Shown here in pieces: positions 51,638 to 63,000 of a DNA stretch of 64,000 nucleotides. Origin of the DNA: Actinomycetota bacterium (lineage in GTDB: Bacteria; Actinomycetota; Actinomycetes; S36-B12; FW305-bin1). Made by a program: the position numbers and the translations under genes. A model generated the notes under the pieces. It ran no database searches. It saw only the letters and a list, made by a program, of their open reading frames with translations, and had not been told where the DNA came from. The DNA is taken from NCBI GenBank assembly GCA_004297305.1, contig SCTR01000009.1:62001-126000 (forward strand), written 5' to 3'. Numbering within the stretch: position 1 is the stretch's first letter; each line of letters opens with the position of its first letter.

Positions 51638-54217
<2,580 letters not shown>

Positions 54218-54683: not shown

Positions 54684-55349
54684 CTACGCCTCTTCACGGT
54701 CCGGGAACAGGTAGAACGCGATCTTCGGCAACCTGACCAGCCCCCGCCCGAGTGCGGCGGTGAACAGTTCCTTAGCGAGGTGCTCGAACTCCGGAGCGAG
54801 GAAGCTGGCGGCCGCGTCAGCCACCTCGGGGTCCTCGGCAGGGTCGTCGGCGCGGAGCATCACCACGACCGCGCCACGGATGTCGTCGCACCAGTCCTGG
54901 GTCGCTTGCGCGAGCGGTTTGATCGCCCCGGCCACCCCGTCAGCCATCAGCCGGATCAACGCCTGACCTTCGCGACGGTCGAACAGCCGATCCAGCGCGG
55001 CCACGATGTGCTCACGCACCACCTCAACATCAGCACCCACTGGCGCGGGCGTGCCGTCGAGGAACGCAAGGGTGCTCGCCCGCATGTGACTGATCGCATC
55101 CAGCGCCAGCCCCTCCTTCCCCTTGCCGGGGAAGTGGTGGTACATGCTGCCCTGACCGATGCCCGAGCGTTGCTGGATCATCACCGGGCTCGTCGCCTCG
55201 AACCCACGCTCCGACAGCAACTTGCATGCCGCGGCCACGAGCTTCTGCTTCGAGTCATACGCCGGACGCCCCGGACCCCGCCGCTGCTCCACCACCTGAT
55301 CGCTCCTCGCCGCCTGACGGCCTGATCCGGCCGCGCTGCCCAATTTCAT
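54684..55349 (-). CDS. TetR family transcriptional regulator
   Basis: 221 residues. The helix-turn-helix covers KLVAAACKLLSERGFEATSP to GIGQGSMYHHFPGKGKEGLA (about 33-80), and the ligand domain has the TetR_C LmrA/YxaF-like layout with KPLAQATQDWCDDIRGAVV. The ATG at 55349 lies inside the right inverted repeat, so the protein probably represses its own gene by covering the start. The frame extends upstream to 55745 without homology. It is divergent from the methyltransferase gene and placed between the recombinase module and the defence genes, so it may control either or both. Confidence 0.85.
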   Translation of the reverse strand: MKLGSAAGSGRQAARSDQVVEQRRGPGRPAYDSKQKLVAAACKLLSERGFEATSPVMIQQRSGIGQGSMYHHFPGKGKEGLALDAISHMRASTLAFLDGTPAPVGADVEVVREHIVAALDRLFDRREGQALIRLMADGVAGAIKPLAQATQDWCDDIRGAVVVMLRADDPAEDPEVADAAASFLAPEFEHLAKELFTAALGRGLVRLPKIAFYLFPDREEA

Positions 55350-55388
55350 ACAGAGTAGTACGGACCTTGACCTGCAAGACGCGTGACC
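55341..55388. repeat. Right copy of 48-bp inverted repeat, overlapping the tetR start
   Basis: Reverse complement of 54623-54670 with seven mismatches. It includes the tetR ATG (55347-55349) and the dyad CGTAC-N6-GTATG. The remaining 227 bases to the methyltransferase start show no gene. Confidence 0.75.
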
Positions 55389-55615
55389 TCCCAGATGGGT
55401 TCTTGGACGGGAAAGGAACTCTGGCATCCCAGGGCGGAGGCTGGACGGGGGTGTGGGTTGAGGTTTCACATCGCGGCTGCCTTCATCGACTCTGCACGAC
55501 CGCTGCATGTCGGCTTCAGAAATGTCAGTGGGTTCTGGGAGACTTGCAGACACGGCGGAGCGAGACCGCTGGCCCTGGCCGAGGCCAGATGGGAGTGACC
55601 AGACGAGGAGGCGGC

Positions 55616-56989
55616 ATGGCGTCCGGAGCACCAGCCTTCGAGTTCGTCGACCTCTTCGCCGGCCTTGGTGGCTTCCATGTCGCACTCGAAAGCCTCGGCG
55701 GCGAGGGAGTGTTTGCAGCCGAATGGGACTCGACGCTGAACGCACTCTACAAAGACAACTTCGGCATCACGCCTTGGGTAGACGTGAACGATCTGAGCGA
55801 TGAGGCGACGATCGCGCGCGAGGTACCGGAACACGACGTCCTGACCGCCGGCTTCCCTTGCCAGCCGTTCTCGAAGGCTGGCGAGCAACTGGGATTCAGT
55901 CACACGCTTCAAGGCAAGCTGTTCTTCAAAGTGCTGGCGATTCTCAAGGAGAAGCGGCCACGGCGCTTCATCCTCGAGAACGTGCCGAACATCATGCGCC
56001 ACCAGAACGGCGCGACTCTGGCCACCATCCGCAAGGAACTCGAAGACCTCGGCTACACCGTCGATGTGCACAAGTTCTCGCCGCACGAGTTTGGAGTGCC
56101 GCAGATTCGAGAGAGGGCGTACTTCGTCGGCTCCCTGGACGGACTTGAAGGATTCCAGTGGCCGACGCCTGCTCGGCCGAAGACGGACATCAGCAGCGTC
56201 CTCGACAGAGATGCGAAGCCGAGTCGCGTGATCCCGGCTCAGACGCTGCGAGCGATCGACATGTGGGATGACTTTCTCAAGCTCGCGCCGGAGTCGCTGA
56301 AGCTCCCGTCGTTCCCGATCTGGTCGATGGAGTTCCGCGCGACCTACCCATACGAGGACGCCACGCCGCCAGCGATCTGGAAAGAACTCGGCCCTCGCGA
56401 CTTGGACAGTGCGCTCGGTAGCTTCGGGTTCGGGCTGAAGGGATTGGCGAAGGAAGCGCAGTTCGAGTTGCTGCCGAGTCATGCTCGCAGGCCCGCCGAC
56501 CTCAAGTTCCCCTCGTGGAAGCAAGCATTCATCCGCCAGAATCGACAGTTCTACTGGGCGAATCAGAGGTGGATCGATCCGTGGCTCGATCAGTGGAGGC
56601 CGTGGGAGTTGCCGTCCAGCCTTCAGAAGTTCGAGTGGAACGTGCAAGGCGGCGAGCGACGAATCGACAAGTATGTTTTGCAGGTGCGGGCCTCGGGCAT
56701 TCGCGTGAAGCGGACTTCGACGGCTCCCAGCCTCATCGCCATGACGCACACTCAGGTTCCTATTCTCGGCAAGAACCTCGTCGGAGTCCGTCGCTACATG
56801 ACCCCTGCCGAGTGTGCAGCTCTACAAAGCCTCGGCTCGATCTCGCTTCCAGAAGGTGACCTTCGGGCATACAAGGCTCTCGGCAACGCTGTCAACGCAG
56901 ACGTGGTTCGCGCGATCGCTGAGCCGCTTCTGCGGGGTCTCGACCAGTCTTCAGCGGCTTCTGAGGACTCGGAAAGTGCTGCGGCGTAA
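55616..56989 (+). CDS. C5-cytosine DNA methyltransferase (DruM/DrmMII-like context)
   Basis: 457 residues. Motif I FVDLFAGLGGFHVALE (residues 10-25), motif IV with catalytic Cys82 in AGFPCQPFSKAGEQLGF, motif VI RRFILENVPNI, motif VIII QIRERAYFVG, and at the C-terminus motif IX (VRRYMTPAECAALQSLG) and motif X (AYKALGNAVNADVVRAI). The target-recognition region is about 250-380. It methylates cytosine in an unknown sequence. GAGGAGG four to five bases before ATG 55616 sets the start, although the frame is open from 55226. No restriction endonuclease accompanies it; the next two genes suggest a host-marking role in a defence system. Confidence 0.93.
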   Translation: MASGAPAFEFVDLFAGLGGFHVALESLGGEGVFAAEWDSTLNALYKDNFGITPWVDVNDLSDEATIAREVPEHDVLTAGFPCQPFSKAGEQLGFSHTLQGKLFFKVLAILKEKRPRRFILENVPNIMRHQNGATLATIRKELEDLGYTVDVHKFSPHEFGVPQIRERAYFVGSLDGLEGFQWPTPARPKTDISSVLDRDAKPSRVIPAQTLRAIDMWDDFLKLAPESLKLPSFPIWSMEFRATYPYEDATPPAIWKELGPRDLDSALGSFGFGLKGLAKEAQFELLPSHARRPADLKFPSWKQAFIRQNRQFYWANQRWIDPWLDQWRPWELPSSLQKFEWNVQGGERRIDKYVLQVRASGIRVKRTSTAPSLIAMTHTQVPILGKNLVGVRRYMTPAECAALQSLGSISLPEGDLRAYKALGNAVNADVVRAIAEPLLRGLDQSSAASEDSESAAA

Positions 56990-57082
56990 CCCGGTGTACC
57001 GGCTCCGGCCTCTTGTCGCGGCACCGATGTCGGGACCCCTCGCTAGCCTGGGATGCACAGAGTGGTGTGGGGGAGACTGGCC

Positions 57083-60046
57083 GTGAGTTCCGAGTACGAG
57101 CGCGTGAGCGAGGCGATCGCTGACGTCATGTTCGGCTCCGCTCAGGCCGGGCGACCGGTCTATGCGCTTGCGGACACCGAGACGATTCGGCGCGTGCTCC
57201 AGGCTGCTGAAACCGAGGATCGGACGCTCGCAGGGCTGTCGGCGGTCGTCAGATCGTCGCTACAAGTAGACGAGGCTGGCGTAGCCCCGTTTCGCTGGCA
57301 GGCCGAGGCAGCGCAACGCCATCGGCGCTCGCCGCTTGAAACTCCGCCCGCGCTCCCCATTCTCGTGGCGCTGTCGATCGCCGCAGAACAGATGCAGGCG
57401 GACGGCGACCTGGCGGCCCACAACTACTACTCGCGACTGCATCGGCTCTTGCATGTCCCGACGACCGAGTACTTGCGAGTCGAGAACGACTATCGCCGGG
57501 TCGCCGATCTGCTGTGGGGATCGCTGAACTCCTGGCTCGAAGCTTGGGACGGTGAGCGCGGAATCCCGACGGCCTACGCCGTCGGCGGCCACGCCTTCAT
57601 CGGGCTGCCGATGTCGCAGGCAGTCGTCCGGCAACACGATCGTGCCGGCCTCCACGAACTCTTCGCTATTGAGGGCATGACCCCGGGTCTGCGCATCTCG
57701 CCGAACGACATGAGTCTCGCAATGGACCCCTATGCGACGGTCACTCCGAGCCTCCCCCTCAGTTCGCATCTTGCTCGTCTCTGGCGGGATTCGGCGGCCC
57801 GAGAGCGCATCGTCAATGCCGCTTGTCTCGAACTCGAAGCATGGGATGGGTCGGGGATCGAATCGGTCGCCTCTGCGCGACCCGTCGTCACGACGCGCCT
57901 GCTGGCGTTCTTGCGTACATTCCCTCGCAAGTCGATTGAGTTCAACCTGATGCTCCCGTACCGCTCGGAAGGGCCGGACATCGCCCGGTTCCAAGTCGCC
58001 GACGAGGAGTCCATTGTCCCGACCGTCGCCGGGCCCGGTGGCTCCACGCGGCTCTCCGGTGCTGAGGGAGTCAGCGCTGCGTCGCTCGTCGGGGAGCAGC
58101 TAACTGGGGAGTTCGGGGATGACGAGAGTCGCCCCTTCGGTCGTCGCCCGAAGCGAGTCGCTCCGCTCCGATGGGACGACCTTCAGGGGGCATTCGTCGA
58201 GATCGAGCGTATTTCGCTCGGCGAGGACAGCATCGTCCTGGCACGGTCGGACGCGCGCCAGCGGGTCGAGACTCACCTTGCGGCTCACGCCCGACCGGGA
58301 TGGCATGAACTTGTCGACCTCCCAGGTGCGCCGGAGGGGTGGGTGGTTTACGAGCACGTCCAGATCGTGTCCGCGCCGACCGGGCAACTGCACTTCGATC
58401 TCTTGCCACTCGCGCCCCGCGCGCGGACGAGTCTGACGCTGCGCGGGGGATTCGTACTTCCCGGGTTGCTTCGCAAGTGGTCGGTGATGGAGCCACCTGA
58501 GGTCGTCGCCCTCGCCGCTGGAGCCTCCTCGGTCGGCGTTCGCGTTTACGGCGGCACCCGTGTCGACCCGGCCGAACTCATCGCTGAGTCCCTACAGCCC
58601 GGCGAGCTCGCGGTGCTTCCGCTCATGGATCAGGGCCTAACTGACGGTGAGTACGTCGTCGCGATGTTCGTAGACGACGCGAATAAGCCGTCGTCAACGG
58701 CGCTCCTCCGACTGCGATCGGCAAGCACTCCGCAGTTCCGCGTCGAGGACGTCGATATCCGTTTGGTCTACTCGCCTGATTCTTCGCCGCGCTGGCCGTT
58801 GACCGCTGGCCCCGCCGAGTGGCCGAGTCATGTCAACGGAGCGAGGACAGTTGGTCTCGAACCGCGCCGCGACGGCGGCACAGTGCCGATGCCGGAGTTC
58901 GTTCCCCGAGAGCGAAGCGCGTCTACCGCATCGGTTGCGAAGACTCGGGTGGGCGTGCCGATGGCGAGCGACTCGTGTCTCATTACCGGGATGCACCGAT
59001 TCCTGCTCCCGCCCGTGCTCCCCGGCCAGGCACCTACGCGGAGCATCGAGGGCGAGTGCACGACCTGCGGGCTCGTGCGTCGCTTCGCTGGAACCCCCTG
59101 GGCCGCGAAGAGGAAGGATGGCGCGGCCAAGACGATCGTTGTCCCGGAAATCCCGCCGGTGATCGAGTCGGACGAGCCAGACTTCGAGGTCGCGTTCGAC
59201 GCACTGAACCACGTCGGGACCGGCTCGTTCGGAGCGTTCGAGCGAATCGCCGCCCAGGTCGAGGGCTCGGGCCTGTTCGCGGACTCGTTCCTCCGACGGC
59301 TTGAAGTCGTAGGTCATGTGGACGTAGCCAGAGACGACTATCTCCAGGTGACCGAATGGGCGGTGAACACGTCCACGCTCGTTCCGACGGGTGACGGGTT
59401 GTGGGTGCTCATCGGGTCGCGCTCCAGCGCGCTGCTGGAGCAGCTCGAGGAGTTGCTCCGCACCGGCGCTGTCGTGCGCACGAGCGTTGATGCCGAACTC
59501 GCCCGCGTAGAGGTCGCTGGCACGCTGCCGGTCGGTCCATTGGCCGACGCCGGGATCGCTGTTCTGGAGACCTCACCGGTCAAGGACATCGTTGAGGCGT
59601 TGCCGCCACTCAGTGAGGTGGCGACATCGCTCAAGCGGGTAATCGTGCCGAGGCACCGGTCTGCAGAGTTCTGGGACACGACCTCGGCCTCGTGGCACCC
59701 TGCGACGTCGCTGGTCAGGGTTGGCTCATATCGGCTCAAGGACTTCGGCTCGACCTACGCGATCCGCACCGCCGATGACATTGCAAGCGGCACGATCGGG
59801 CTCGGAAACGCGCAGATCGTGAAGCACATCGCGAACCTCTGGGCTCGTGACCCCCTCGTTGGCTACAACTCGCGCAGCGGCTCAGTTGTCACGCCTCTTG
59901 GCGCGGATTTGCCGGCCTTGTATGGGCGCGCCCTCGCGCTTTGCTCAGGACGAGCACCGCGAGAGATCGTGAATCACCGGATGCTCCAATACCCGTCAGT
60001 GCCGCGCGCCGTCGCGGACGTCATCTACGATCGAGTGAGCCGGTGA
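57083..60046 (+). CDS. 987-aa protein of unknown function coupled to the helicase (DruH-like candidate)
   Basis: A large, soluble, mostly ordered protein with no domain I can name. The N-terminal part is helical ([32 protein letters not shown]). Middle parts look like beta-rich repeats ([32 protein letters not shown]). A possible zinc site comprises Cys632, His638, Cys659 and Cys662 ([14 protein letters not shown]). A C-terminal [19 protein letters not shown]-containing segment resembles an adaptor more than an enzyme. GTG 57083 has GGGAGA upstream; the open frame reaches 57053. Its stop overlaps the helicase start (GTGA). Size and position match the partner of DruE in Druantia type III, but I cannot confirm homology by eye. 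Confidence 0.75.
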
Positions 60047-63000
60047 GCAGCATGTCGTTCCCCACCCCCGTGAAGATCGCCGATGACCTCCGCGACGCGT
60101 TTCTCCGATACATCGACACCGCCTACGCGCTGCTGGACCAGGCCCTCATCGAAGAGCGGCGGCGCCTGCTGCTCGAAGGGCAGGGCAACCTGTTCGCCCC
60201 GCTCATGCTCGAACCCGTCCTACCCTACGACGGGGTCGCGTCAGTCGCCGAGGCGGCGAGTCAGGCCGATGTCGACGCACGTGATCTCGGCGACGTCATC
60301 AGGGCTGTCTTTGGCGTTACGCCGGATGCGCTCGCTGGCGTCAAGCTCCGTAAGCACCAAGCGGTAGCGCTTGCAACGCACTTCGCGCCAGGGACCGCGC
60401 ACAACCCAGTTGTGACATCAGGCACGGGGTCTGGCAAGACGGAGTCCTTCTTGATACCGCTCTTGAGCCGGATCGTGGCTGAAAAGCGGTCAGCAGCGGC
60501 ACTGTCTCCGGTCCACGAGTGGTGGGATCTGAAGCGGCAGAGCGACAACTGGCAGCCGGCGCGAACAGTTGGAGCGACCCCGGCAGCAGTTCGATCGGTC
60601 ATCCTCTACCCGACCAATGCGCTGGTCGAGGATCAGGTTGCGCGGCTCCGCCGGGCCGTCCGCGGCCTGCGGGATCAGGAGTCGCCTATCGACCTCTGGT
60701 TCGGGCGTTACACCGGGGCGACGCCGGGCTCAGGTGGAGTTCCGACCGGGAAGGTCTCAGCACCCGCTACTGCTGACGCGGCCCGTGACATGCGGGAGCT
60801 ATCGCGTCTCAACGCGCGGCTCGCCGAACTCAACGACCCGGAGTTGATGGCTCAGTTCCAGGACCCCTACGCTGGCGAACTCATCACCCGGTGGGACATG
60901 ATCGCCACCCCACCCGATGTGCTCGTCACTAACTACTCGATGCTCAACGTGATGCTGATGCGCGACGTCGAGGAGCCCATCTTCGAGTCCACTCGGCGGT
61001 GGCTTCAGCGATCGTCGGATCACGTCTTCACTCTCGTAGTCGACGAATTGCACCTGTACCGTGGAAGCACCGGGGCCGAAGTCGGGATGGTCGTCCGAAA
61101 CCTGGCATCGCGGCTCGGGCTTGAGCCTTCTTCCGACCAGTTCAGGATCATCGCGACCAGCGCCTCCCTCCCAGGGGATGACTCGGGTCTGGAGTACCTG
61201 GAACGATTCTTCGGCGTCGACAGAGCGTCCTTCCTGATCGAGCCTGGGCAGCCGCGGCCGCTGGTGCCAGAGAACAAGCCGACTGCTGGCGATGTGCTGA
61301 GTATTGCCCCGAACGAGCTGCCGGAAGCTGCTGCGAGAGATCGCTGGGCGGAGACGATCGCTGCTGCGTGCGCTGACCCTGGCGACGGGCGCCCCAAGGC
61401 CACGCGAATTGACACTGTTGCGACTCGCCTATTCGCGGACGATCCGCTCGCATCATCGGCGCTTGCGACGATGCTCGTTGGACTCGCAGACGCGGCGAAG
61501 CCCGCGGTCCAGTTCCGCGGCCACGTCATGATGCGAGGGATGCGTGGGCTCTGGGCCTGCGCTGACCCCGCCTGCCCCGGTGGCACCGATTCAGAGCCTC
61601 GGCGAGTAGGTCGGATGTATGACACGCCGCGGTCGACCTGCGCCGACTGCGGCGCACGAGTGCTTGAACTTCTCTACTGCTTTGAGTGTGGCGATGTCAG
61701 CCTCGGGGGCTACGTCGTGGACCGACCCGACCGCGGGGCTGTCATGCTCTCGACGACTCCGGTCACGCCTGGTGAGAACTCGGGTGACTTCGTGTACCGA
61801 AGGAACGACGATGAATACCGATGGCTCTGGCTCGGTTCGCCGGTTCCCGATTCCCCCAGCCGTCACAAACTCCCCGCCGACATGGATGAGAACCAGGCCA
61901 CCATCGAGACCAACTTCGGGGCCGCGACCTGGAATCCCAAGCTCGGGTCGCTCATTCTCGGCAACTCGCCCGACGGCATCCCAGCAGTCGTCCTCAGCCA
62001 CAACGCGGGCGATGACAGCGGATTGGCACTCCCCGCGCTGCCGGAAGCCTGCCCGCGATGCGGTGGGAGTCAGGACAACCGAGATGCTGCGGTCTACTTC
62101 GCCGGCAATGTCCGATCGCCGATTCGTGCACATACGTCTGGCCGCGCGCAGCTCAACCAAATGGCGGTCTCTCAGTTGTTCCGCAGCCTCGGGTCGGAGG
62201 CGGCCGAGTCGAGGACGATCGTCTTCACCGACAGCCGGGACGACTCCGCGCGCATTGCCGCCGGGATCGCGCTCAACAACTTCCGCGACCAGGTGCGACA
62301 GGTCGTCCGGCAACTGCTCCACGGGCGCGAGAACCCTGTTCCGATTCTGCGCGCACTCCTGCGTAACGAGCTGGATGGTGATGGCCTCGAACGCGCTGAG
62401 ATGCTGCGTTCCAGCCGTCGGGAGCTGTTCGACAAGCTCCGACTGGAGAGTCTCGGTGCCGCTGACGCATCGGACTTGGCGACGATCGCTGCCGCAGAAA
62501 GGGAGACCGAATCTCTGCCGTGGTCTAGGCTCATCCACGATGCCGAGCGGGTGATGCTTGAGGTCGGCGTGAACCCGGCTGGCCCGGGACCGTCGGTGGC
62601 AGAAAGCGAGGGTGACGCCCCTTGGTATCGCGCCTACGCGCCGCCGATCCGCAACGCCTGGGAGCCGCTGACCGACGCGATAGCGCGGCCCATTCGCCAG
62701 GACCGCTATCGGCTCACTGCGACCGCCGTCGCAGAGGCCGTCTTCGACCGTGCCTCGCGCGACCTCGAATCGACCCGCCTTGGAGTCGTGAGGGCACGGC
62801 CGCTTGCACCCGACGGCTGGGGTTTCTCGACGGAGATCGCGGGGGACGTGGTCGCGAGCGTCATCCGGCTACTCGGGATCGCGAAACGATTCGAGGGCGG
62901 GTACGCGGCTCGATCGAACTCAGCACCGAAGGTCGTCGGCACCTACCTCAAGAGGGTCGCAGCGAAGCAGCAGGTCGACTGGCAGACGCTGCTGTCGAAT

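Follow-up and report, generated by a model that had tools for sequence, protein, structure and literature searches.

The locus considered here raises the question of what a large protein encoded directly upstream of a helicase does, and to what kind of system the two belong. The window, i.e., the whole stretch of 64,000 nucleotides from an Actinomycetota bacterium that was analyzed, carries the gene at positions 57083..60046 of the + strand, an open reading frame of 987 aa, as the initial annotation had it, which is uninterrupted and begins with a GTG codon. The longest reading frame opens at an ATG at 57053, 30 bases before 57083; the start at 57083 coincides in the alignment with that of the closest relatives (L011 and L015) and is preceded by GGGGGAG. 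The GTG of the helicase gene (60043) overlaps the TGA stop of the partner (60044-60046) in the form GTGA, with an alternative helicase ATG at 60052, and this overlap makes the translational coupling that had been proposed for the two genes plausible.

The initial annotation had regarded the gene as the least explained one of its size in the window, and sequence searches against Pfam, NCBIfam, and the PDB indeed gave no significant match. Since neither Pfam nor NCBIfam recognizes it, the protein seems unexplained in ordinary annotation. A match to RPA12 (0.0076), lying over a fibronectin type III (FnIII)-like region, was taken as chance, and the viral contigs searched contained no relatives. 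The defence-system models of PADLOC give a different answer: DruF2 (PDLC00016) matches the protein with 1025 bits and E=0, from residue 3 to 986 and from profile position 22 to 1029 of 1030, so that the gene can no longer be called unexplained, and the family matched is a described defence family, not an enzyme family. Membership in the DruF family is all but certain; a single type I DruC sequence showed no similarity to DruF. The gene upstream encodes a C5-cytosine DNA methyltransferase of 461 aa, DruM (55604..56989, + strand; PF00145, E=2e-59), which ends 93 bases 5' of the gene under study, is the only protein of the 2.68-Mb genome found to match PF00145, and matches DruM2 (PDLC00034) over nearly its full length with 235 bits, a generic MTase_II model scoring slightly higher. 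The helicase, a YprA-like SF2 protein of 1784 aa, begins at 60043 on the + strand and runs through 64000 past the window edge, ending near G000:C9:127397 (reading frame on L002: 9942/10044-15398); the full protein matches DruE2 (PDLC00015) with 1500 bits over residues 8-1780. In the loci of relatives with enough flanking sequence, druE likewise lies directly 3' of druF, or of druF and druL. The DruF2 and DruE2 matches, together with the upstream cytosine methylase and its DruM2 match, identify the locus as Druantia, i.e., as a recognizable variant of a known defence machine and not an unknown one, and it is very probably part of an anti-phage system.

The gene is longer than a plain druF, and its last third has an identity of its own. 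DruL4 (PDLC00057) matches residues 736-983 with E=9.5e-16, and more distantly related loci encode the two parts separately, with druF (about 550-720 aa) next to druL (about 300-450 aa) and both ahead of druE. An independent druL lies between druF and druE in Pseudarthrobacter (L032, 721+308 aa), Planotetraspora (L035), a Chloroflexota MAG (L036, 690+295 aa), Deinococcus (L043), and Calothrix (L044). A profile built from the fused C-termini and three separate DruL proteins, with the cyanobacterial one left out, found that separate cyanobacterial DruL with an hhalign probability of 98.2%. Because residues ~700-987 match a protein that elsewhere has its own gene between druF and druE, we conclude with high confidence that the gene is a DruF-DruL fusion, hereafter druFL, whose DruL part (aa 691-987; 59153..60043, + strand) is supported by the AlphaFold2 model, structural matches, and hhalign. 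Two further observations concern DruL. The type I protein DruD (L045:7180-7962) is collinear with the DruL C-terminus at an hhalign E of 0.17, which is not significant; a distant relation of DruD and DruL is possible, and a plasmid collection yielded no further relatives for a profile. A divergent Druantia locus (L010; G236:C92:44000-59026) carries a methylase, a DruF-like protein of 850 aa that is matched in the middle only, a separate DruL of 356 aa, DruE, and a DruK-like gene.

The junction of the two halves holds the Cys/His cluster on which the initial annotation had focused. C632 (codon at 58976), H638 (58994), C659 (59057), and C662 (59066) are present as described and, non-conservation among homologues having been named at the outset as a refutation, all four prove invariant in the 20 fused homologues that contain the region, down to 22% identity. 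They are the only invariant ones among the 26 Cys and His residues of DruFL, the other 22 varying in the same 20 homologues, and this conservation is more than chance. On the strength of these four candidate ligands, the stretch of aa 626-690 (58958..59152, + strand) can be described as a putative zinc module. The C-H-C-C site is absent from the split DruF and DruL proteins that were aligned or read, and in one of the fused proteins (L031) the set is incomplete. When the loci are arranged by a DruE tree, the 22 that combine the fusion with the site make up one side of a single branch with a support of 99, and this clade covers Actinomycetota and Proteobacteria; since the fused protein served as the query in gathering the loci, the frequency of fused versus split forms cannot be read from them.

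The helical N-terminus and beta-rich middle that had been proposed from the sequence agree with the AlphaFold2 model; for folding, alignment A4 was taken in place of A3, two rows of which stemmed from loci outside the selection rule. The whole protein was modeled with a pLDDT of 81.6 and a pTM of 0.73, and the C-terminal 298 residues alone with 91.8 and 0.86. DruF thus comprises a helical domain (aa 1-268; 57083..57886, + strand), delimited by the modeled secondary structure and the alignment and containing a near-invariant SQAxVRxxDR motif at aa 178-187, and a beta-rich region (aa 269-600; 57887..58882, + strand). The zinc module is poorly modeled, with 613-627 and 672-688 of low confidence. 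The view that no fold can be recognized does not hold for parts of the protein. Residues 448-546 are predicted to form an Ig/FnIII-like sandwich, the best VIA-align match being TEP1r (Z 8.3, rmsd 2.6 over 84 residues), followed by many FnIII/C3 domains near Z 7-8, values of Z 6-8 being common for unrelated beta sandwiches. The opening of the DruL part (aa ~698-763) is likewise predicted to be a winged helix, the majority of its top structural matches being winged helices at Z 6-7.8, again a range common for unrelated winged helices. Foldseek searches of the PDB with the whole and the C-terminal models gave no match below 0.001, and a viral structure library none below E 0.001, with weak matches to tail-tip J-like proteins. 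No PDB chain resembles DruF or DruL by sequence; relatives of DruE and DruH have been solved (9wae, 9tu7, 9tud).

How the locus fits the published Druantia types depends on which components are counted. Type IV has been described as DruE, DruF, and DruL without DruM or DruG (PMC8565338); all three are present here, in the F-L-E order of the split loci, but F and L are joined in a single protein whose junction holds a zinc-like module, and a cytosine methylase lies 5', contrary to the type IV description. Type II (DruM, DruF, DruG, DruE) has been described from Proteobacteria only (PMC8565338); DruM, DruF, and DruE are shared with it, whereas the present locus has DruL, an actinomycetotal host, and no DruG that could be found. 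One could regard the locus as a canonical type II system whose DruG was lost or overlooked, given that the best PADLOC models for F and E carry the type II label and that, of the Druantia models, DruM2 fits the methylase best. Neither DruG model (PDLC00024, PDLC00025) finds a match in the genome or in 18 relatives, however, an absence made less certain by PDLC00024, which matched none of the control genomes that PDLC00025 did match, and the type IV marker DruL is present as the C-terminal part of DruFL, all of which leaves the canonical type II reading very unlikely. The composition of the locus instead links the published types II and IV. The long form as such is already catalogued, its function unstated, in the DruF2 models of PADLOC (PDLC00016 and PDLC00023; ~1010-1030 aa), the former matching full-length, but the model description marks neither the DruL last third nor the C-H-C-C site. 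Outside Druantia, DISARM (DrmA/DrmB), Dpd (DpdJ), and ARMADA (YprA-family) have a related helicase, but DpdJ and DrmA score only 53 and 33 bits against the helicase compared with 1197 for DruE2 (window part), and DruFL matched none of the PADLOC models of DISARM, Dpd, and ARMADA.

The surroundings of the three genes were also inspected. A large serine recombinase (Resolvase, Recombinase, and zinc beta-ribbon domains) adjoins a tRNA-Ala gene (window 52521-52595 and 52600-54217), which suggests that an island has integrated here, although the final 16-40 bases of the tRNA did not recur in the sequence that was searched. A TetR-family regulator lies between the recombinase and druM (window 54684-55745, - strand). 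After the Druantia genes, just past the window (G000:C9), follows a type I-C CRISPR-Cas system with Cas3c, Cas5c, Csd1/Cas8c, Cas7, Cas4, and Cas1 (L002:16148-19435, L003:39-4623, and L003:4742-~12000), whose array comprises about 100 repeats, each about 37 nt long.

Comparison with related loci separates druFL-druE from its neighbours. The window and Tersicoccus phoenicis (L011) are 93.6% identical over a block that opens 12 bases 5' of druFL and closes 17 bases past druE, and 70-82% identical in the aligned parts of the flanks (methylase stretch 70%, recombinase region 81%). Over 210 locus pairs, which are related by descent and do not count as independent, F is less conserved than E in every pair (33% vs 45%), and divergence correlates at r=0.97 between F and E and at r=0.61 between F and M. 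The druFL-druE pair therefore moves and diverges as a single cassette, with the methylase exchanged separately, and the assignment of DruFL as a helicase partner in the initial annotation gains from both the exchange and the parallel divergence. The same data bear on the idea of a restriction-type system, in which DruM would mark host DNA while DruFL-DruE attacked unmarked DNA, with DruFL as the specificity subunit. Of 31 loci, 23 do have a C5 methylase at a distance of at most 10 kb, and DruM is the one such enzyme found in this genome. Its position, strand, and subfamily vary between loci, however, eight of the 31 show none (some being cut by contig ends), and close F-E pairs occur with unrelated methylases, as in the window and L015, where F is 82% and the nearby methylases 22% identical. 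In several Proteobacteria, moreover, the methylase adjoins an MvaI/BcnI-type endonuclease and may therefore belong to a separate restriction-modification system. We consider the restriction-type reading doubtful.

Which component would then damage the target is a second point on which the neighbours are informative, as the gene 3' of druE differs by lineage: it is a DruK-like nuclease in some, a 655-aa ATPase in others, and neither in others again, including this locus, where no nuclease was recognized. The ATPase, found directly 3' of druE in seven loci (L007, L008, L024-L027, and L034), has weak similarity to NERD+UvrD and GajB models, and an MvaI/BcnI-type endonuclease is near in five of the seven. 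For types I and II, the C-terminal region of DruE has been described as a Vsr that is inactivated (PMC12458937), and in the fusion clade it keeps an HPLW motif with no PD-(D/E)xK residues visible by eye. Such a lack of recognizable nucleases, along with the DruK or ATPase/MvaI genes missing here and the near-invariant polar motif in DruF, could mean that DruFL is itself a nuclease or other enzyme whose active site is of a type not yet described, the part of DruE being confined to unwinding. Walker A, PD-(D/E)xK, HKD, and HNH motifs were looked for in DruFL and none was found, in line with what had been read from the sequence at the outset; most of the conserved residues are of a structural kind (G, P, W, L, A), and other Druantia lineages have a separate nuclease gene beside FL-E, which would perhaps then be needless. 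An enzymatic DruFL is accordingly unlikely, and a little less probable still is its more specific form, in which a catalytic site, e.g., around SQAxVRxxDR, would make DruFL the effector of Druantia loci in which no nuclease is recognized, and the zinc module would connect this effector with the winged helix as the part that recognizes DNA.

We favor, as the probable reading, that DruFL serves the DruE helicase as partner within a Druantia locus of three genes, druM-druFL-druE, and acts as a sensor or adaptor; for the sensor/adaptor mechanism in itself, which is argued by analogy, we see about an even chance. A protein would be recognized by the Ig-like region and DNA bound by the winged helix, while a structural zinc knuckle, formed by the C-H-C-C module, would keep both halves in register. 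DruFL could in this way load DruE on phage DNA or on intermediates of replication, or license it there; DruM may mark host DNA or serve as an independent restriction neighbour. The analogy is with DruH of Druantia III (PMC13192584, PMC13316683; PDB 9tud), a partner of ~1000 aa encoded just 5' of DruE that has an Ig-like region and, like DruF, diverges faster than DruE; with its Ig-like domains, it has been proposed to be the sensor (PMC13192584). Against the analogy stand the nuclease activity of DruH itself, reported in a preprint (PMC13192584), and the missing similarity to DruF at the profile level, where the DruFL alignment A4 compared with four DruH sequences gave an hhalign probability of 0.1% (E 0.41), DruH having been taken from a plasmid because the family model PDLC00038 matched nowhere; the two may nonetheless be related in fold. 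Against recognition of a protein by the Ig-like region, this region does not clearly exceed the remainder of F in variability.

For the family, the composition of this locus unites two published Druantia types, in that the long "DruF2" proteins consist of DruF and DruL together, and locus lists that require a separate DruL or DruG may therefore misfile such systems. The joint evolutionary unit is DruFL-DruE, around which methylase and nuclease genes are swapped, and the domain map together with the four Cys/His residues makes the role of the helicase partner directly testable.
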